From positions 1 through 64,000 of the forward strand of contig JAFGJX010000004.1 in the NCBI GenBank assembly GCA_016928865.1: 64,000 nucleotides of DNA. The letters run 5' to 3'. Both the position numbers and the translations under genes were made by a program. Source of the DNA: Spirochaetota bacterium (GTDB lineage Bacteria; Spirochaetota; UBA4802; UBA5550). The notes below the pieces were generated by a model, which was not told the DNA's origin, ran no database searches, and saw only the letters and a list, made by a program, of their open reading frames with translations. This document shows positions 33,277 through 44,140 of the stretch, in pieces (positions within the stretch are counted from its first letter, which is position 1; every line of letters starts with the position of its first letter).

Positions 33277-34245
33277 TTATCTTTTTTTAGCGTGCTTTTC
33301 TATCAGGAGAGGAAGAAAAACAGTCAGGTCCTCCACGATTATATAATCGGCTATAGAGAATATCGCGGCATGCGGGTCTTTATTGACGGCCACGACAGTC
33401 TGCGATCCCTTCATGCCTGCAATATGCTGCTGCGCGCCAGATATGCCGCAGGCCATGTAGAGCTTCGGCGCAACGGTCCTGCCGGTGACTCCGATCTGAT
33501 GGGCGTACGGCAGCCATTTCTGGTCAACGACGGTGCGCGAGGCGCCGACCGCGGCATTGGGAAAAAGCCTGGCAACGGCGCGGATGAGGTCAAGATTCTC
33601 TTTCGTTCCGATACCCCTGCCGGCGGCGATGATGACATCCGATTCCTCCAGCCTCACCTCCCCGCCCGCTGATTCCCGGATACCGAGCGGTCTGCAATGA
33701 GAAGGGCCGCCGGCGGGTGTGCGGTGAAGCACCTGTCCGGGCACACGGTGTCCGGCTGTGATGTCCGGCACCCGAAACGCGCCGGGAAGCACCGTGAACG
33801 CGGCCCGCTCTCCTCCGGGGACAAGTCCAACGGTGATTTTCCCATTGATTATCGACTTGCAAAATACAACGCTGTCTCCGTCGTGTATGAAAGATTCCAC
33901 CCCGGTGATGCAGGGGAAGCCTCCCGCTGCAGAGATACGGGAGGCTATCTGGCATCCCCGCATTGTGTGCTGGATTATAACATAGCGGGGTTTGATTTCA
34001 TCAACTAGCCGTATTGCTTCGTCAGCAAAAAAATCGGGATTTGGAAAGCGCAGGTCGGGGTGTTCGAGCGCGATAACGTCATGGCCGAACCGGGCGGCTT
34101 TGCGCGAGATATCGGCGACGTTCTCTCCGGCGATGATTACCCGTATTCGCGATTGCTCTGTGCCGGCAAGCATTTCTGCAAAGCTGATCAGCTCGAATAT
34201 CGAATCGGCCGTCGTGTTGTTTATGGTATCAATGAGTATGAGCAT
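33277..34245 (-). CDS. etfA: Electron transfer flavoprotein alpha subunit
   Basis: Takes electrons from acyl-CoA dehydrogenases to the quinone pool through ETF-quinone oxidoreductase. The 322-residue product has the C-terminal FAD-binding domain: AAGRGIGTKENLDLI near residue 212, then GASRTVVDQKWLP and QIGVTGRTVAPKLYMACGIS (about 240-280), and VAVNKDPHAAIFSIADY at the end. It follows etfB by 17 nt. Divergent to the acyl-CoA dehydrogenase operon under one control region, so it should serve those enzymes. Confidence 0.95.
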   Translation of the reverse strand: MLILIDTINNTTADSIFELISFAEMLAGTEQSRIRVIIAGENVADISRKAARFGHDVIALEHPDLRFPNPDFFADEAIRLVDEIKPRYVIIQHTMRGCQIASRISAAGGFPCITGVESFIHDGDSVVFCKSIINGKITVGLVPGGERAAFTVLPGAFRVPDITAGHRVPGQVLHRTPAGGPSHCRPLGIRESAGGEVRLEESDVIIAAGRGIGTKENLDLIRAVARLFPNAAVGASRTVVDQKWLPYAHQIGVTGRTVAPKLYMACGISGAQQHIAGMKGSQTVVAVNKDPHAAIFSIADYIIVEDLTVFLPLLIEKHAKKR

Positions 34246-34262: not shown

Positions 34263-35036
34263 TTATAAAAGTGATTTTTCATGCAGAATATCCAGGAGCT
34301 TCTCCGCCTTCTGCTCCGGCGTTCCTTTAATTATCGTGCCCTTGACCGCGGATTCCGGATAGCAAATGGATACAACCGTTTCAACCTGACCAGACAGGAC
34401 GGTACCGGCGGACAGCATGGTCAGCGCCTGCTCTTTTGCGCGCAGCACATTGGAAAGAGAAGGATAGCGCGGACGGTTGATGCCGGACTGGATTGTGAGC
34501 AGGCAGGGGAGAGGAAGGATAAGGGTCTCGTTCACTCCCCCTTCAAGCTCGCAATCAACGTCTATTTCCGATCTGTTGTCACCAATTTTTTCCCTGACAA
34601 CCGAAACCGCGCAGGGCAGGCCGAGGTATGAGGCGATAAGGGGGCCCACCTGACACTGCATGTCGTCTTCAGCCATCACGCCCGCAAGGATAAGGTCATA
34701 GCCCCTGTCCCGGGCGTAATCCGCGATGAGCCTGGCGATAAGACCGGGTGAACGATAGCGATCCCTATCAAGAATTATGTGGATGCCATTGGTGGCGCCC
34801 TTTTCAATCCCTTTTTTAAGAACCGCGGCCGCCCGTTCGGACCCTACCGATATCACGTCAACCGAGGCATCACCGAGGGATTCGCGTATGAGGACCGCTT
34901 CTTCAAGGGCGTACTCATCGTACAGGTTCATACGATAGGCAATCCCGTCACTCTCGCAGATCCAGCCGCGTGTGCTGTCAATTTCGATGTTTGCTTCCGG
35001 GTCTGGAACCTGCTTCAGGCATACCAGTATCTTCAT
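34263..35036 (-). CDS. etfB: Electron transfer flavoprotein beta subunit
   Basis: AMP-binding partner of EtfA. The 257-residue product begins MKILVCLKQVPDPEANI and has the DLILAGVMAEDDMQCQVGP segment near residue 115 (the recognition and AMP region), both typical. The last residues carry the alpha-subunit contact. There is no Shine-Dalgarno and the predicted transcript starts at or within a base or two of the ATG, so the mRNA is probably leaderless. First gene of etfBA. Confidence 0.95.
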   Translation of the reverse strand: MKILVCLKQVPDPEANIEIDSTRGWICESDGIAYRMNLYDEYALEEAVLIRESLGDASVDVISVGSERAAAVLKKGIEKGATNGIHIILDRDRYRSPGLIARLIADYARDRGYDLILAGVMAEDDMQCQVGPLIASYLGLPCAVSVVREKIGDNRSEIDVDCELEGGVNETLILPLPCLLTIQSGINRPRYPSLSNVLRAKEQALTMLSAGTVLSGQVETVVSICYPESAVKGTIIKGTPEQKAEKLLDILHEKSLL

Positions 35037-35042
35037 GGGAGT

Positions 35043-35072
35043 ATAATATCAAGAGGGAAGTCAGGGTGTCAA
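35043..35072 (-). promoter_or_regulatory. Promoter of etfBA (minus strand)
   Basis: TTGACA (minus strand, 35072-35067), 18-nt spacer, TATTAT (35048-35043). The ATG of etfB at 35036 sits where transcription should begin, so the leader is essentially absent. The -35 box is embedded in the large inverted repeat of the divergent region. Confidence 0.65.
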
Positions 35073-35109
35073 GAAAAAAAGCGAACGTTCGCTCGATTTT
35101 TTCTTGACA
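35067..35109. promoter_or_regulatory. Divergent operator region: 14-bp palindrome in 13-bp inverted arms
   Basis: TGTCAAGAAAAAA (35067-35079) and its exact reverse complement (35097-35109) flank the perfect 14-bp palindrome AGCGAACGTTCGCT (35080-35093), with three extra bases on one side. The arms hold the TTGACA boxes of both divergent promoters, and the palindrome sits between them, where one bound dimer could block both. The TetR gene in the rightward operon is the natural candidate regulator. Confidence 0.7.
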
Positions 35110-35131
35110 GAATTGTGCGTTTCAGTACCGT
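35104..35131 (+). promoter_or_regulatory. Promoter of the rightward acyl-CoA operon
   Basis: TTGACA, 16-nt spacer, TACCGT (keeps the key T, A and T). Transcription would start near 35138, a few bases before AGAGGAAA and the ATG at 35150. Confidence 0.55.
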
Positions 35132-35149: not shown

Positions 35150-35860
35150 ATGAGCACGATATTCTTTCTGCGTCATGGCCAGGCGTCATTCGGCAAGGAC
35201 AATTACGACGAGCTTTCGGAAACAGGAGTTCGTCAGTCAAAGCTCCTTGCCCGGTACCTGGCGGAAAAAAAGGGGTGCTTCGACGCTGTGTACACCGGCA
35301 CGCTCGAGCGCCAGCGTAAAACAGCGGATGAATTGCTAAAATTGCTCGGGGAAAAGGGGGAGCAGGTTCCAGAGGTTTGCAGGATGGAAGGACTAGACGA
35401 ATATCCAACCGAGAATATATTCCGTGCGCTCGGACCAATAGCCGTGGAAGCGAATCCTTCCCTCAAGGAACATATCGGCAGGCTCATGACTGACCGTCGA
35501 TCCTTCCAGAAGGTGTTCGAGGCCCTCATGTCCATGTGGGCCTCCGGCAGGTATGACCAATCGGGCCTTGTGTCCTGGAATGATTTTACCGCTGGCGTGA
35601 ACAGGGCCATCGACGAGATACTCGCGCGCGACGGAGCTGGAAAAAACGTGGCGGTCTTTACCTCGGGCGGGAGCATATCGGTCGCGGTCAGGCGCACCCT
35701 GAACCTGTCCAACGACGACACCATGCGCGTGGCGGAGCAGATAGTGAATTCATCCATCACCAGGTTCAAGAGCACCACGGACCGTATCATGCTTTTTACC
35801 TTCAATGAATATCCGCATCTCGAGCGCGAGAATGACGAGAAGCTGATTACCTATAGATAA
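35150..35860 (+). CDS. Histidine phosphatase family protein
   Basis: A 236-residue member of the phosphoglycerate mutase-like histidine phosphatases. The phospho-accepting histidine is in FLRHGQAS (H9) and the ETGVRQSKLLARYL helix follows; Arg and a second His are expected near YTGTLERQRKTAD and FTSGGSISVAV. It is the first gene of the acyl-CoA dehydrogenase operon. Such phosphatases recur in operons of APH-type kinases and acyl-CoA dehydrogenases, which suggests it acts on a phosphorylated acyl or CoA intermediate; this is inference. GAGAGGAA precedes the ATG. Confidence 0.85.
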   Translation: MSTIFFLRHGQASFGKDNYDELSETGVRQSKLLARYLAEKKGCFDAVYTGTLERQRKTADELLKLLGEKGEQVPEVCRMEGLDEYPTENIFRALGPIAVEANPSLKEHIGRLMTDRRSFQKVFEALMSMWASGRYDQSGLVSWNDFTAGVNRAIDEILARDGAGKNVAVFTSGGSISVAVRRTLNLSNDDTMRVAEQIVNSSITRFKSTTDRIMLFTFNEYPHLERENDEKLITYR

Positions 35861-35880: not shown

Positions 35881-37101
35881 ATGGATTTCACCATATCAGA
35901 AAAAATGAAGACCGTCCTGGGGATGATCAACGAATTTATCGATAAAGAGCTGATTCCTATGGAACCCGAATTCGTGACCACTGAATTCAGGGACATGGTC
36001 CCAGTCCTCGAAGAAAAGCGGAAGATGGTGCGGCAGATGGAGCTGTGGGGGCCGAACCACCCGAAAGATCTGGGCGGGATGGGCCTCACCATGCTGGAGC
36101 ACGGGCTCGTGTCCGAGGCCCTGGGACGCACACCGCTCGGGCATTACGTGTTCGGGTGCCAGGCGCCGGACGCCGGGAACATCGAAATCCTTCACATGCA
36201 CGGAACAAAGGAGCAGAAGGAGCAGTACCTGAAGCCGCTCGCGGCCGGCACAATCAGGAGCTGCTTTTCAATGACCGAAGTGGACATGCCGGGGTCGAAC
36301 CCGGTGATGCTCGAGACTACGGCGGTCAAGGACGGCGATGATTACGTTATCAACGGCCACAAGTGGTACAGCACGGCCGCGGACGGGTCGAAGTTCAGTA
36401 TCGTCATGGCGGTGACGAACCCGGATGCGCCCACCTACATGCAGGCAAGCATGATCATCGTCCCGACGGAAAACCCGGGATTTAACCTGGTGAGGAACAT
36501 CCCGGTAATGGGCCATGAAGGCAGCGACTACGCGAGCCATGGCGAGATCCTTTTCCAGAACTGCCGCGTGCCGCAGAAGAACCTGCTTGGTCCCGAGGGA
36601 CACGGATTTATCATCGCGCAGGACCGGCTCGGGCCGGGGCGGATTCACCACTGCATGCGGTGGCTCGGGATCTGTAAACGGTCGTTCGATCTGCTGTGCA
36701 ACCGGGCGAACGAGCGCATAATCGCGCCGGGCGGCAAGACCCTGGCGACACGTCAGACCGTGCAGAACTGGGTCGCGGAATCGGCGGCGGAGATACAGGC
36801 GGCGCGACTCATGACGCTTTACGCGGCCTGGCGCATCGACACCGTGGGCGCAAAGGAGGCGCGGGACGACGTCTCCGTCATCAAGTGGGTGGTGGCCAAC
36901 ACCATGAATGCGGTTGTCGACCGCGCCCTCCAGGTGCACGGCGGCCTCGGCATGACCGACGATACGATCCTGGCGTATTTCTACCGCCACGAGCGCGCGG
37001 CCCGCATCTACGACGGAGCGGACGAGGTGCATAAAACGTCATTTGCAACGAGGACCCTTCGCCGGTACGATGAGGCCGCGAAAAAGGGGAAGAAGCAGTG
37101 A
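35881..37101 (+). CDS. Acyl-CoA dehydrogenase, ACAD10/11-like (copy 1)
   Basis: A 406-residue FAD-dependent acyl-CoA dehydrogenase. Seen: N-terminal helical domain; middle beta domain with CFSMTEVDMPGSNP near residue 131 (FAD contact); C-terminal domain with QVHGGLGMTDD near 352 and the end motif ARIYDGADEVHK with D378. Most acyl-CoA dehydrogenases use Glu in a YEGT motif at this place; the DG-x-DE-V/I-H form is that of mammalian ACAD10/ACAD11 and bacterial partners of APH-type kinases. AGGAGG lies before the ATG. Its stop overlaps the TetR start. Copy 2 lies 5.3 kb downstream. Confidence 0.92.
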   Translation: MDFTISEKMKTVLGMINEFIDKELIPMEPEFVTTEFRDMVPVLEEKRKMVRQMELWGPNHPKDLGGMGLTMLEHGLVSEALGRTPLGHYVFGCQAPDAGNIEILHMHGTKEQKEQYLKPLAAGTIRSCFSMTEVDMPGSNPVMLETTAVKDGDDYVINGHKWYSTAADGSKFSIVMAVTNPDAPTYMQASMIIVPTENPGFNLVRNIPVMGHEGSDYASHGEILFQNCRVPQKNLLGPEGHGFIIAQDRLGPGRIHHCMRWLGICKRSFDLLCNRANERIIAPGGKTLATRQTVQNWVAESAAEIQAARLMTLYAAWRIDTVGAKEARDDVSVIKWVVANTMNAVVDRALQVHGGLGMTDDTILAYFYRHERAARIYDGADEVHKTSFATRTLRRYDEAAKKGKKQ

Positions 37102-37805
37102 CCTTCAAAGACTTCAGCAAGCGGGTGATGGTGACGGTGGAAGACCTCTGCCGCGATTTTTACCGGGAGAACCGTTCCCAGTTCAGGATCAAGAAAGAGG
37201 ATACGGCTGTGAAGAACCTGGCCGCCATCGTCAACGCCACCCTGAAGCTGAGCTTTAAAAAGGGCTTCGACGCAATGAGCCTGCGCGACCTCTCCGGCCA
37301 GTCGGGCCTTTCGATGGGCGCGCTCTATACCTATTTTTCAAGCAAGGACGAGCTTCTCGGCATGATCCAGCGCCAGGGCCAGATTGCCGTGGAGAGGATA
37401 CTGACCGAGTATATCGGCTCCGGCAAAGAAATACGCGAGAAGCTCCGGGACGCGATACGCGCACACCTGTACCTGAGCGAAATGATGAAGGGCTGGTTTT
37501 ATTTTTTTTTCATGGAGACGAAGAACCTGAACGAAAAATACCGGAACATTTCGGTGAAGAGCGAGCTCATGACAGAGCGCTTCATTACCGACATTCTCGA
37601 AGAGGGCGTGAAGAGCGGGACGTTCGTTCTTGACAATGTGCCCTTGATGGGATCGATAATCAAGGCCATGATGCAGGACTGGTATCTCAAGCAGTGGAAG
37701 TATGCGCAGCGGAACATATCCGTCGAGGAATACGCGAAGTTTGTCATACGCGTGGTTGAATCATATATAATCAACAATCAGCAAGCGGGCAGCGCCCCGC
37801 AATAA
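37098..37805 (+). CDS. TetR-family transcription regulator
   Basis: A 235-residue regulator, starting with GTG overlapping the dehydrogenase stop (GTGA). The helix-turn-helix is at about residues 38-85, with FKKGFDAMSLRDLSGQSGLSMGALYTYFSSKDELL (split: DAMSLRDLSGQSGLSMGALY then TYFSSKDELL), and a ligand-binding domain follows. It lies inside the operon it most likely controls. The 14-bp palindrome in the etfB/histidine-phosphatase gap is the obvious target. Acyl-CoA ligands are usual for such TetR proteins but the ligand is unknown here. Confidence 0.9.
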   Translation: MTFKDFSKRVMVTVEDLCRDFYRENRSQFRIKKEDTAVKNLAAIVNATLKLSFKKGFDAMSLRDLSGQSGLSMGALYTYFSSKDELLGMIQRQGQIAVERILTEYIGSGKEIREKLRDAIRAHLYLSEMMKGWFYFFFMETKNLNEKYRNISVKSELMTERFITDILEEGVKSGTFVLDNVPLMGSIIKAMMQDWYLKQWKYAQRNISVEEYAKFVIRVVESYIINNQQAGSAPQ

Positions 37806-37838: not shown

Positions 37839-38906
37839 ATGGCACGAAAAGACGAACCGATAGATATACGGAGCGGTGAAGAGCTCGATCTTGTCAAGGT
37901 GGGAACGTATTTGAAGGATACGATCCCGGGCCTGGAAGGGGAACTCTCGGTCAAGCAGTTTCCCAGCGGTTTTTCCAATCTCACGTATCTGATAAAGGCG
38001 GGGAACCGCGAGATGATACTCAGAAGGCCCCCGTTCGGGAAAAAGCCGAAATCGGGCCACGACATGCTGCGTGAATACAGGATACTCAAGGCACTGAAGC
38101 CAGTGTTCAGGTACTGCCCGGAGCCGCTGGCGTATACGGAAGACCCGGACGTTATGGGGTGTCCGTTCTACGTGATGGAGCGGATACACGGCCTCATTAT
38201 ACGGAGGAGCCTGCCGGAGGGATTGGTCCTTTCGAAAGAAGACGCGCGCACGCTTTCCGAAAACCTGATAAAAGTCCTGTGCGAGCTTCATTCCATTGAC
38301 TATATCAAGGCGGGCCTTGGGGATTTCGGAAAGCCTGAGGGGTACGTGAAGCGTCAGGTGGATGGCTGGATCGGCAGGTACCGGGACGCGCGCACACCGG
38401 ATGCCCCGGATTACGAGGAGATCATGAAGTGGCTCACTGAAAAAATGCCGGCCGATACAGATGTTCCCTGCGTCATTCACAACGATTATAAGTACGATAA
38501 CGTTGTCCTCCACCCGGACAGGCCGCTCGAGATCGTCGGGATTCTTGACTGGGAGATGGCGACCATCGGAGATCCTCTGATGGACCTCGGGAACTCGCTG
38601 GCCTACTGGGTCGAGAAGGACGATCCGCCCGCGGTACAGCTGGTCAGGATGATGGCGACCAATGTCGAGGGGATGCTCACCCGCAGGGAGCAGGTCGAGC
38701 TGTACGGAAAAATCATGGGGCGCACGATTAATGATTTCGATTTTTACTTCTGCTTCGGGGTGTTCAGGCTCGCGGTCATCGCGCAGCAGATCTATTATCG
38801 CTATTACCACGGCCAGACCAGGGACGAGCGCTTCAAGATGCTGATCGGCGCGGTGAAGATACTGGAGACGGTCGCAAAGGACGTGACCGTGACGTCAAAG
38901 CTATAA
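37839..38906 (+). CDS. APH-family phosphotransferase (ACAD10/11-type kinase)
   Basis: A 355-residue protein of the aminoglycoside-phosphotransferase fold, close to the kinase halves of ACAD10/ACAD11 and to LvaA, which phosphorylates 4-hydroxyacyl-CoA. Seen: QFPSGFSNLTYLI (glycine-rich region), ILRRPPFGKK (ATP lysine region), FYVMERIHG hinge, catalytic loop HNDYKYDN (H214, D216, N221) and ILDWEMATIGDP (metal Asp D237). GAGGAGG precedes the ATG. It lies between the TetR and the SDR genes. Substrate is inferred from the family and neighbours; aminoglycoside resistance is unlikely. Confidence 0.88.
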   Translation: MARKDEPIDIRSGEELDLVKVGTYLKDTIPGLEGELSVKQFPSGFSNLTYLIKAGNREMILRRPPFGKKPKSGHDMLREYRILKALKPVFRYCPEPLAYTEDPDVMGCPFYVMERIHGLIIRRSLPEGLVLSKEDARTLSENLIKVLCELHSIDYIKAGLGDFGKPEGYVKRQVDGWIGRYRDARTPDAPDYEEIMKWLTEKMPADTDVPCVIHNDYKYDNVVLHPDRPLEIVGILDWEMATIGDPLMDLGNSLAYWVEKDDPPAVQLVRMMATNVEGMLTRREQVELYGKIMGRTINDFDFYFCFGVFRLAVIAQQIYYRYYHGQTRDERFKMLIGAVKILETVAKDVTVTSKL

Positions 38907-38928: not shown

Positions 38929-39711
38929 ATGAAAATGGATAATTCATTTTTGAAGCAGGTGGACTTTACCGGGAAGAAAGCCCTCATCACCGGCGCAAGC
39001 AGGGGTATCGGCGAATCGATAGCGGTGACGCTCGCATCACTGGGCGCGGAAGTGATCCTGGTGAGCAGGAAGCTCGAGGGGCTGAAAGAGGTGGAAGATA
39101 AGATCACCGCCGAAGGCGGAAAGGCGGAGTCGATTCCGTGCAATATCGGGAACATGAACGATATAGATGACCTCTTCAAACAGGTCAGGGGAAAGTATGA
39201 TGCCCTTGATATCCTGGTGAACAACTCTGCCACCAATCCGTTTTTCGGGAGCAACCTGGACGCGCCTGAATCAGCGTGGGACAAGACCTTTTCCGTGAAC
39301 CTGAAGGGCTTTTTCTTCATGACCCAGCACGCGGCGAAGATCATGAAAGAAAAGGGCGGAGGATCAATCGTGAACATCAGCTCAGTCAACGGCATAAAAC
39401 CGGCGCTGATGCAGGGAATGTACTCGATTACCAAGGCCGGCGTCATTTCCATGACCAAGTCCTTCGCCAAGGAGCTTGCGCCCTTTCATATCCGTGTCAA
39501 CGCGGTACTGCCGGGCATGACCGACACGAAGTTTTCCGCCGCGATAACGAAGAATCCGGACATCCTGGACAAGGTGGTGTTGCCGACAATACCGATGGCC
39601 AGAGTGGCCCAGCCGGATGAAATGGCCGGTGCCGTGATCTACCTGGTTTCCGATGCGGCGTCCTATACCACCGGCGCCTGTATTATTGTCGATGGCGGGA
39701 TGCTTGCGTAA
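38929..39711 (+). CDS. Short-chain dehydrogenase/reductase (SDR)
   Basis: A 260-residue NAD(P)-dependent oxidoreductase of classical SDR type. Seen: cofactor loop GASRGIGESIAVTLA (about residues 22-36), NNSATNPFF near 99, catalytic serine in NISSVNGIKPALMQGMYSITKAG (S near 153, Tyr and Lys in the YSITKAG part near 165) and the end TTGACIIVDGGMLA. In the lva pathway a comparable SDR (LvaD) reduces a 4-keto-acyl-CoA to 4-hydroxyacyl-CoA; a 3-hydroxyacyl role is the other option. It follows the kinase gene by 22 nt. Confidence 0.9.
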   Translation: MKMDNSFLKQVDFTGKKALITGASRGIGESIAVTLASLGAEVILVSRKLEGLKEVEDKITAEGGKAESIPCNIGNMNDIDDLFKQVRGKYDALDILVNNSATNPFFGSNLDAPESAWDKTFSVNLKGFFFMTQHAAKIMKEKGGGSIVNISSVNGIKPALMQGMYSITKAGVISMTKSFAKELAPFHIRVNAVLPGMTDTKFSAAITKNPDILDKVVLPTIPMARVAQPDEMAGAVIYLVSDAASYTTGACIIVDGGMLA

Positions 39712-39782: not shown

Positions 39783-40685
39783 ATGAACATTGATGATGTA
39801 AAAAAAGTGCTTGTCGTGGGCTCGGGAACCATGGGGCAGCAGATTGCGACAGTGTGCATCATGCACGGGATGGCGGTCAATCTGTATGACGTGAAAAAGG
39901 AATTGCTCGATGCCGGCATGGAAAGAATTGACAGGCTGCTTGGATTTTTCGTCAAGCACCGCGCGATTTCTGAACAGGACAGGGCCACGGCATTTGCACG
40001 CGTTTCCGCTGTCACCTCGATTGAGGAGGCAGGGGCCGATGTTGACCTGGTGAGCGAGTCGATACCGGAAGATCCGAAGCTAAAGGGCCAGTTGTTCTCT
40101 CAGCTGAATACCATCTGCCCCGAGCGAACGATTTTCACGACAAACACCTCGACGCTGCTGCCCTCCATGTTTGCGGCGAACACGGGGCGTCCTGACCGTT
40201 TTGTGGCGTTTCATTTTCATGATGTGCGTACCACGACGATCGTTGACGTGATGCCGCATCCGGGCACTTCGAAAGAGACCGTCGGTCTCGTGCGAGATTT
40301 TGCCGTGCGCATCGGCCAGACTCCCATCGTGATGGAGCGGGAGAGCGTGGGCTACGTGTTTAACTTCATGCTGGTAAGCCTGTTCGAGTCCGCGCTGACG
40401 CTCGCCTCCAATAATGTTGCATCTATCGAGGACATCGATCGTTCATGGATGGGTGTGATGGGCACGATGTCCGGGCCGTTCGGCATCATGGACAGCGTCG
40501 GGCTGCAGACCGTGTGGAAAGTGAACGATTTCTGGGCACGCGCCCTGAAAGATCCTCAAAAAATTCGCAATGCGGAATTTGTTAAAGCCTATGTCGACCA
40601 GGGCCGTCTCGGGGTGAAAACCCGGAAGGGTTTTTACGAATATCCACATCCAAAATTCAGGAACCCTGACTTTATACGGGGATAG
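39783..40685 (+). CDS. 3-hydroxyacyl-CoA dehydrogenase
   Basis: A 300-residue NAD-dependent dehydrogenase of beta-oxidation. The Rossmann loop VVGSGTMGQQIATVC is at residues 10-24; NTSTLLPSMFA is near 122; HFHDVRTTTIVDVMPHPGTS near 140 includes the catalytic His; the C-terminal dimer domain includes VGYVFNFMLVSLFESALTLA and GPFGIMDSVGLQTVW. GAGGGGGA lies before the ATG. A GC-rich hairpin (CCCCC-GGCA-GGGGG near 39725) lies in the 71-bp gap before it. This enzyme would finish oxidation of the acyl chain. Confidence 0.92.
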   Translation: MNIDDVKKVLVVGSGTMGQQIATVCIMHGMAVNLYDVKKELLDAGMERIDRLLGFFVKHRAISEQDRATAFARVSAVTSIEEAGADVDLVSESIPEDPKLKGQLFSQLNTICPERTIFTTNTSTLLPSMFAANTGRPDRFVAFHFHDVRTTTIVDVMPHPGTSKETVGLVRDFAVRIGQTPIVMERESVGYVFNFMLVSLFESALTLASNNVASIEDIDRSWMGVMGTMSGPFGIMDSVGLQTVWKVNDFWARALKDPQKIRNAEFVKAYVDQGRLGVKTRKGFYEYPHPKFRNPDFIRG

Positions 40686-42352: not shown

Positions 42353-43570
42353 ATGGAATTTGAAATATCTGATCGCATGAAGACTGTTCTCAAGATGATC
42401 GATGATTTTATGATCAAGGAGATCGTACCGCTCGAGCCAGAGTTCCTGAACAGGGAGTTCAAGGAGATGCTTCCCGTGCTCGAGGAGAAACGGAACATGG
42501 TAAAACAGATGGAACTCTGGGCGCCGAACCATCCAAAGGAGTATGGCGGCATGGGTCTCGGCCTCATGGAACATGCACTGGTGTCGGAAGCGCTCGGGTA
42601 CTCGCCCCTGGGCCATTATATTTTCGGATGCCAGGCGCCGGACGCGGGCAACGTGGAGCTTCTGTACCACTACGGCACAGAGGATCAGAAGGCACAATAC
42701 CTCGCGCCGCTTGTTGAAGGCAAAATCAGAAGCTGTTTCGCAATGACCGAGCCTGAAGTGGCGGGATCGAACCCGATCATGCTCCAGGCGACCGCGGAGA
42801 AAGACGGCGATGACTACGTCATCAACGGGCACAAGTGGTTTGCGAGCTCCGCCGAGGGAGCGGCATTCGCCATCGCGATGCTGGTAACGGACACGGGCCC
42901 GAATGCGAACCCCTATCTGAAGGCGAGTATGATTATCGTCCCGACCGACACGCCTGGGTTCAACCTGGTGCGAAACATCCCGGTAATGGGCCACAGAGGC
43001 AGCGATTACGCCAGCCACGGCGAGATACTCTTCCAGAACTGCAGGGTGCCGAGAACGAACCTGCTCGGCCCTGAAGGGCACGGGTTTATCATGGCGCAGG
43101 AGCGGCTTGGCCCGGGGAGGATACACCATTGCATGCGGTGGCTCGGGGTGTGCAGGCGTTCGATGGAGCTCATGATCAATTTTGCGCTCGAGCGTGTTAT
43201 CGCGCCGGGCAACAAGACGCTTTCCACCAGGCAGATAATACAGCTCTGGGCGGCTGAATGCGAGGCCGATGTGCTGGCCGCCCGACTGATGACGCTCCAT
43301 GCCGCATGGAAGGCTGAGAAGTTGGGCCAGAAAGAGGCCCGGTATGACATATCATTCCTGAAGTTCTTCGTGGCCAATGTCATGCAGAAGGTGGTTGATC
43401 GTGCGATGCAGGTGCATGGCGGGATCGGCGTGAGCGATTATTCGATTTTGTCGTTTTTCTACCGTCAGGAGCGCGCTGCCCGGGTGTACGACGGCACGGA
43501 CGAAATACACAAGTTTGCCGCCTCGAGGCGGGTGTTTGAAAAATACAAAGGGCGAAAAACACTCTGGTAA
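42353..43570 (+). CDS. Acyl-CoA dehydrogenase, ACAD10/11-like (copy 2)
   Basis: A 405-residue paralogue of the dehydrogenase at 35881, alike over its whole length (for example EFKEMLPVLEEKRNMVKQME against EFRDMVPVLEEKRKMVRQME). It keeps CFAMTEPEVAGSNP, QVHGGIGVSDY and the end motif ARVYDGTDEIHK with D380, the ACAD10/11 variant. AAAAGGAG lies before the ATG. The two copies differ most near the substrate end, so they may act on different chain lengths or successive steps, or form a heteromer. Last gene of the block. Confidence 0.92.
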   Translation: MEFEISDRMKTVLKMIDDFMIKEIVPLEPEFLNREFKEMLPVLEEKRNMVKQMELWAPNHPKEYGGMGLGLMEHALVSEALGYSPLGHYIFGCQAPDAGNVELLYHYGTEDQKAQYLAPLVEGKIRSCFAMTEPEVAGSNPIMLQATAEKDGDDYVINGHKWFASSAEGAAFAIAMLVTDTGPNANPYLKASMIIVPTDTPGFNLVRNIPVMGHRGSDYASHGEILFQNCRVPRTNLLGPEGHGFIMAQERLGPGRIHHCMRWLGVCRRSMELMINFALERVIAPGNKTLSTRQIIQLWAAECEADVLAARLMTLHAAWKAEKLGQKEARYDISFLKFFVANVMQKVVDRAMQVHGGIGVSDYSILSFFYRQERAARVYDGTDEIHKFAASRRVFEKYKGRKTLW

Positions 43571-43681
43571 TGGGCTGTTGAAGGACGTGTCCGGAGGTAA
43601 AATGCCGCGCACGACGGTATTAATCTTGACGTCCCGGTCGCCCGTGTAGCATCGTTGCCGGTACGTGCGAGGAGCGATCGA

Positions 43682-44140
43682 ATGCCGGATACCTACATAG
43701 AAATAGCCAGAAACAAGAAGGCGCGCTTCGATTACGAGATTGTCGAGACCTTCGAGGCGGGAATTGTTCTGGCCGGGAGCGAGGTGAAATCGATGCGTCA
43801 GAAAAAGGCGAGTATCCAGGAGGCATACGCGCGCGTTAAGAACAACGAAATATACCTGACCGGGATGAACGTCGCCGTCTATGAGATGGCGAATCGCTTT
43901 AACCACGAGCCGGTGCACGACCGGAAGCTCCTCATGCACCGGCACGAGATCAAGAGGCTCATCGGCAAGGTGCAGGAAAAGGGGTTTACCCTGGTCCCGC
44001 TCAAGCTCTATTTCAAGAACGGCAAGGTAAAGGTGGAGATAGGCCTGGCGCGTGGCAAGGCAAAGTACGATAAGCGTCATTCGATACAGAAGCGGGAAGT
44101 CGAGCGCGAGCTCCAGCGTGAATGGAAGAACTACCGATGA
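43682..44140 (+). CDS. smpB: SsrA-binding protein SmpB
   Basis: Binds tmRNA and delivers it to stalled ribosomes for trans-translation. The 152-residue product opens MPDTYIEIARNKKARFDYEI, with the beta-barrel and KSMRQKKASIQEAYARVK and FNHEPVHDRKLLMHRHEIKRL near residue 80 (tmRNA-binding loops), and ends with a basic C-terminal tail GKAKYDKRHSIQKREVEREL, which becomes the decoding-centre helix. I chose ATG 43682 because AGGAG lies nine bases upstream; an earlier in-frame ATG adds nine unneeded residues. No tmRNA gene was found next to it. Confidence 0.96.
   Translation: MPDTYIEIARNKKARFDYEIVETFEAGIVLAGSEVKSMRQKKASIQEAYARVKNNEIYLTGMNVAVYEMANRFNHEPVHDRKLLMHRHEIKRLIGKVQEKGFTLVPLKLYFKNGKVKVEIGLARGKAKYDKRHSIQKREVERELQREWKNYR

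Follow-up and report, generated by a model that had tools for sequence, protein, structure and literature searches.

The segment at 35043-35131 separates two divergent transcription units (Table 1), and all positions refer to the window, the whole 64-kb stretch of DNA that was analysed. The leftward unit consists of etfB and etfA, the former being one of 3 EtfB-like genes in this genome. The rightward operon begins with a histidine phosphatase gene and includes two acyl-CoA dehydrogenase genes, acad1 and acad2. A TetR gene had been placed in this operon by the initial annotation, and it is the third gene. The same-strand run is closed by a gene named smpB from its sequence (43655-44140), which also follows the cluster in the genus relatives L050-L053.

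Table 1. Coordinates of genes and predicted control elements around the divergent promoter region.
Feature	Position	Strand	Remarks
etfA, electron transfer flavoprotein alpha subunit	33277..34245	-	
etfB, electron transfer flavoprotein beta subunit	34263..35036	-	
Leftward -10 box TATTAT	35043..35048	-	extended (TG before), spacer 18; promoter scan
Leftward -35 box TTGACA (etfBA promoter)	35067..35072 (read 35072-35067)	-	sequence and promoter scan
Left arm TGTCAAGAAAAAA	35067..35079	.	A tract and leftward -35
Predicted operator core AGCGAACGTTCGCT	35080..35093	.	perfect 14-bp palindrome; family consensus ANCGARCGYTCGYT
Right arm TTTTTTCTTGACA	35097..35109	.	T tract and rightward -35
Rightward -35 box TTGACA	35104..35109	+	sequence
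Weak candidate rightward -10 TACCGT	35126..35131	+	3/6 matches, spacer 16
Histidine phosphatase (phosphoglycerate-mutase-like)	35150..35860	+	first gene of rightward operon
acad1, ACAD10/11-like acyl-CoA dehydrogenase	35881..37101	+	catalytic Asp
TetR regulator	37098..37805	+	GTG start, 4-nt overlap with preceding gene; predicted operator binder
APH-fold kinase	37839..38906	+	resembles ACAD11 kinase domain
Short-chain dehydrogenase (SDR)	38929..39711	+	
3-hydroxyacyl-CoA dehydrogenase	39783..40685	+	
FAD-dependent protein		rightward	between 3-hydroxyacyl-CoA dehydrogenase and second acyl-CoA dehydrogenase
acad2, second ACAD10/11-like dehydrogenase	42353..43570	+	no operator of its own here

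From its predicted products, the rightward operon is of the ACAD10/11 type. The closest PDB match of the acad1 product is ACAD11 (E = 2e-85), and its DG.DEVH motif aligns with that of ACAD11, with the catalytic Asp replacing the usual Glu as in the ACAD10/11 (LvaC) enzymes. Residues 8-334 of the kinase align with 8v3v (E = 2e-47), which places it with the ACAD10/11 (LvaA) kinases. In mammalian ACAD10 a HAD phosphatase-like domain accompanies the kinase and ACAD domains, and a phosphatase beside a kinase and an ACAD recurs here with a different fold, that of the histidine phosphatase. Both ACAD10/11 and the bacterial pair LvaA/LvaC act on 4-hydroxyacyl-CoAs by phosphorylating them and then removing the phosphate (PMC11342911, PMC12440821). 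The presence of an ACAD10/11-like dehydrogenase with an ACAD11-like kinase therefore suggests that 4-hydroxy acids or related acyl-CoAs are the probable substrates of this operon.

The perfect 14-bp palindrome, the 13-nt arms and the two outward TTGACA boxes listed in the initial annotation are all present in the sequence, and the inverted arms are 100% complementary. The array had also been called symmetrical, which holds for the arms and the palindrome separately, as each is perfect, but not for the two together. Their axes are 1.5 bp apart, with the arm centre (35088) to the right of the palindrome centre (35086.5), because an extra CGA (35094-35096) is found on the right side only. Perfect 13-nt inverted arms no more than 40 bp apart occur once in the 64 kb, as does an outward TTGACA pair with a separation of 10-60 bp. 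The palindrome by itself is no evidence, because the window includes 10 perfect palindromes of at least 14 bp. Judged by comparison of sequences, the non-randomness of the segment comes from its conservation, described below.

The leftward promoter, TTGACA-18-TATTAT, is good, with 11 of 12 hexamer positions matching in the promoter scan. Between the end of its -10 box and the etfB ATG (35036) there are 6 nt and no obvious ribosome-binding site, and the etfB mRNA may therefore be leaderless in this genome. No rightward promoter passes the promoter scan of the window, TACCGT being the best -10. At the rightward -35 position, at least 5 of 6 bases match in 40 of 43 homologous sites. The leftward box, a perfect TTGACA in this genome and its genus, is more variable than the rightward TTGAC box and, as the leftward -35 of relatives is often merely TTGAT, etfBA is less securely placed under this control than the rightward operon.

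The TetR protein is present in 34 of 148 relatives, all from one order of Spirochaetota. The conserved arrangement is etfA-etfB facing phosphatase-acad-tetR-kinase, and in most relatives the gene pair opposite the operon is etfBA. In several, the divergent gene at the site is of the CoA synthetase, flavin reductase or nitroreductase type and not etfB, and at L060, L119 and L120 another gene or none lies to the left. A ANCGARCGYTCGYT-type site flanked by A and T tracts is present in every promoter region examined, and in almost all of them a TTGAC box follows 5-12 nt to its right; conservation extends to the exact bases CGA..TCG, beyond mere pairing. A search of the 148 relatives for the exact 14-mer AGCGAACGTTCGCT gave matches in this genome only, because the motif is degenerate, and a degenerate pattern was then used. 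Motif models trained on other families recovered the same site in every one of the 43 regions, a comparison that is not wholly blind because a consensus taken from these very sequences had guided the initial choice of sites. In 41 of these regions the site score was reached by at most 3 of 300 shuffled sequences. Weaker sites of this kind precede homologous clusters in Pseudomonadota (an Aeromonadales MAG, a Burkholderiaceae MAG and two Advenella genomes). At L035, L038, L040 and L047, which belong to one genus, the sites are symmetrical about an axis displaced by 2 bp (GAACGATCGTTC) and the recognition helix is unchanged.

Where the regulator gene has moved, the site has moved with it. At L056, L061 and L066, tetR is apart from the acyl-CoA operon and faces an enoyl-CoA-hydratase-like gene (named from its sequence), with the site at its own promoter region, and at L053 a second tetR-acad pair also has the site at its own promoter region. 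This second pair, in the genus relative G005 (L053:14057-15966), has the perfect operator AACGAACGTTCGTT. This genome keeps acad2, of similar divergence (67%), but no second tetR; a second operator was looked for at acad2 (42353) and none was found. Among the 12 relatives in the order that lack this TetR, 11 also lack a close acad1. The twelfth, G008, retains etfBA and acad1 in divergent orientation and the site is absent, the best site score being -1.3 bits, a value reached by 144 of 300 shuffles. The initial annotation had tied the shared site of the divergent etfBA and acyl-CoA operons to TetR, a link supported by their being conserved, relocated and lost together over about 35 genomes. The site at 35080-35093 is very probably bound by the operon-encoded TetR, because in dozens of bacteria the two stay, move and disappear together.

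The pattern AAANCGARCGYTCGNT matches once in this genome. In 45 genomes of the order it gave 25 matches against 1 control match, and in a sample of 250 genomes from other orders of the phylum 25 matches against 32 in controls, which is no excess. Of the matches examined away from the locus, two precede relocated acad1 genes and the others lie within genes. This genome also has weaker matches to the palindrome, which were dismissed because they are in genes or at gene ends. A genome scan for the 14-bp palindrome had been expected to define a regulon, and it returned one site and no wider regulon. With a single site in the genome, the predicted regulator is local and not global.

Both domains of the regulator are those of the TetR family. 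The N-terminal helix-turn-helix (HTH) scores 42 bits for PF00440 (curated cut-off 24) and the ligand-binding C-terminal domain 37.1 for TetR_C_24, PF17932 (cut-off 26.4), and the predicted model (pLDDT 88) has the all-helical TetR fold, with TM-scores of up to 0.86 on TetR structures. The nearest solved folds include the acyl-CoA-binding TetRs PfmR, FadR of Bacillus and of Thermus, and KstR2. The protein falls well short of the Bacillus-type FadR equivalog NF053878 (33.5 bits, cut-off 200). Members of this TetR group have a conserved extension of about 32 residues before the HTH (37098-37220 here), with two predicted helices and a KKE motif.

Taken together, it is highly probable that the segment is a single operator of the operon's TetR, where a dimer would repress both promoters and be released by acyl-CoA. 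The dimer would sit on the 14-bp core between the back-to-back promoters. Measured from its centre, the core is about 50 bp ahead of each predicted start (near 35036 to the left and 35138 to the right), and it overlaps the hexamers of neither promoter. A single repressor closing both promoters, as the initial annotation envisaged, would thus act from about -50, a predicted position immediately upstream of the two -35 boxes. The footprint, including the A and T tracts, would span -40 to -60 at each promoter and reach the inner ends of the -35 boxes. Exclusion of sigma region 4 and of the alpha C-terminal domains would keep RNA polymerase off both etfBA and the phosphatase-acad-tetR-kinase operon, and tetR would be autoregulated through the promoter of its own operon. 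An acyl-CoA of the pathway would free TetR and bring about joint induction of ETF and the enzymes.

The most likely mode of action is repression at both promoters with relief by an acyl-CoA. The same TetR on the same operator might activate one or both promoters from -50, a position used by activators, and the weak rightward -10 would be consistent with this. However, the gap between core and -35 ranges from 5 to 12 nt among relatives, which a contact-dependent activator could hardly tolerate, and the nearest characterised relatives, of the FadR type, are repressors (PMC5597230), making activation quite improbable. The variable spacing is evidence against an activator and suggests steric exclusion, which it suits better than a phased activator. 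Control confined to the rightward operon, with tetR autoregulated and the adjacent etfBA controlled separately, is unlikely, though with a real chance of being correct. It would account for the rightward TTGAC being kept in nearly all sites while the leftward box varies, and for the three loci with another gene or none on the left. Against this stand the etfBA genes facing the operon in most relatives, the perfect leftward TTGACA of this genome and genus, and, for the 12 loci with two strong -35 boxes, a distance of 28-31 bp between them.

The binding of this TetR to the site is a prediction, and relatives that lack it still carry other TetR-family genes, so another regulator could be imagined at the site. 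This is very unlikely, since the site accompanies this TetR to unrelated loci and is missing where this TetR is absent, and since in other orders its pattern occurs no more often than expected by chance. That the segment is an RNA element such as a terminator-like hairpin, and not a protein site, has almost no probability. The segment includes a short hairpin with T runs on both strands and passes a simple terminator scan, but both transcription units begin downstream of it, so that no transcript end is needed there, the exact bases CGA..TCG are conserved and not pairing alone, and there is no Rfam match. The terminator and structured-RNA readings were rejected for these reasons.

Control of etfBA together with acyl-CoA dehydrogenase genes by a TetR protein is already known, for example from Thermus thermophilus FadR. 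The Bacillus subtilis FadR operon also contains etfB and etfA. That protein (PDB 3whb, 3whc) likewise has a TetR fold and acyl-CoA as its ligand, but it controls a multi-operon beta-oxidation regulon, and the TetR here adds the N-terminal two-helix extension. The best PDB sequence match of the TetR here, also among its best fold matches, is PfmR of T. thermophilus (PDB 3vpr), which shares about 25% identity and is without the extension. T. thermophilus FadR regulates the acyl-CoA dehydrogenase and etfB-etfA genes TTHA1144-1146 (PMC5597230). The target genes and the palindromic form of its operator are as here, and its ligand is acyl-CoA; however, its site TTRNACYNRGTNYAA is unrelated in letters to ANCGARCGYTCGYT, and it controls several operons where one site is found here (PMC5597230). 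FadP and PsrA of Proteobacteria are likewise TetR regulators of fatty acid degradation, with about 18 genes per genome on average for FadP (PMC5343134). PA3973 of Pseudomonas aeruginosa is a TetR repressor of the adjoining acyl-CoA dehydrogenase gene, with an AidB-type target, more than 300 sites and the motif SAAGRNMTGAACG (PMC9736018). FadP, PsrA and PA3973 were set aside as named relatives of the TetR here, no match being shown and the motif differing where one is given.

The lva operon (LvaA, LvaC) and mammalian ACAD10/11 combine a kinase with a catalytic-Asp dehydrogenase, as in the rightward operon, and these papers, in the parts searched, make no mention of an ETF partner or of such a TetR switch (PMC11342911, PMC12440821). 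The literature searched held no paper on this operator, and among the papers listed for its letters none dealt with a bacterial operator. The two-helix extension and the operator ANCGARCGYTCGYT might mark a distinct TetR subfamily forming a dedicated switch for bacterial 4-hydroxy-acid catabolism of the ACAD10/11 type, coupled to its own ETF, a reading put forward only tentatively and rather doubtful. If it is true, ETF would receive electrons from the bacterial ACAD10/11 enzymes, in contrast to the mammalian ones studied so far. Most interesting is that ETF and an ACAD10/11-type enzyme are paired repeatedly. ACAD10/11 activity is reported without an external electron acceptor (PMC11342911), and the constant tie to etfBA raises a biochemical question for this reason. 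For ACAD10/11-like genes in bacteria, here in a lineage seen chiefly through metagenomes, an exact operator is predicted together with its regulator; the mammalian counterparts of these genes were not explained until 2024-2025. Small, specific and local, the regulator-operator pair could potentially be used as an acyl-CoA sensor once the ligand is identified.

At L034 (5685-8535), Met73 in the recognition helix is replaced by Arg, and this coincides with a symmetric change of the operator to CGGACGTCCG, in one event only. The two changes are a possible specificity-switch pair, in which case Met-to-Arg would be expected to shift the preference from CGAACGTTCG to CGGACGTCCG.
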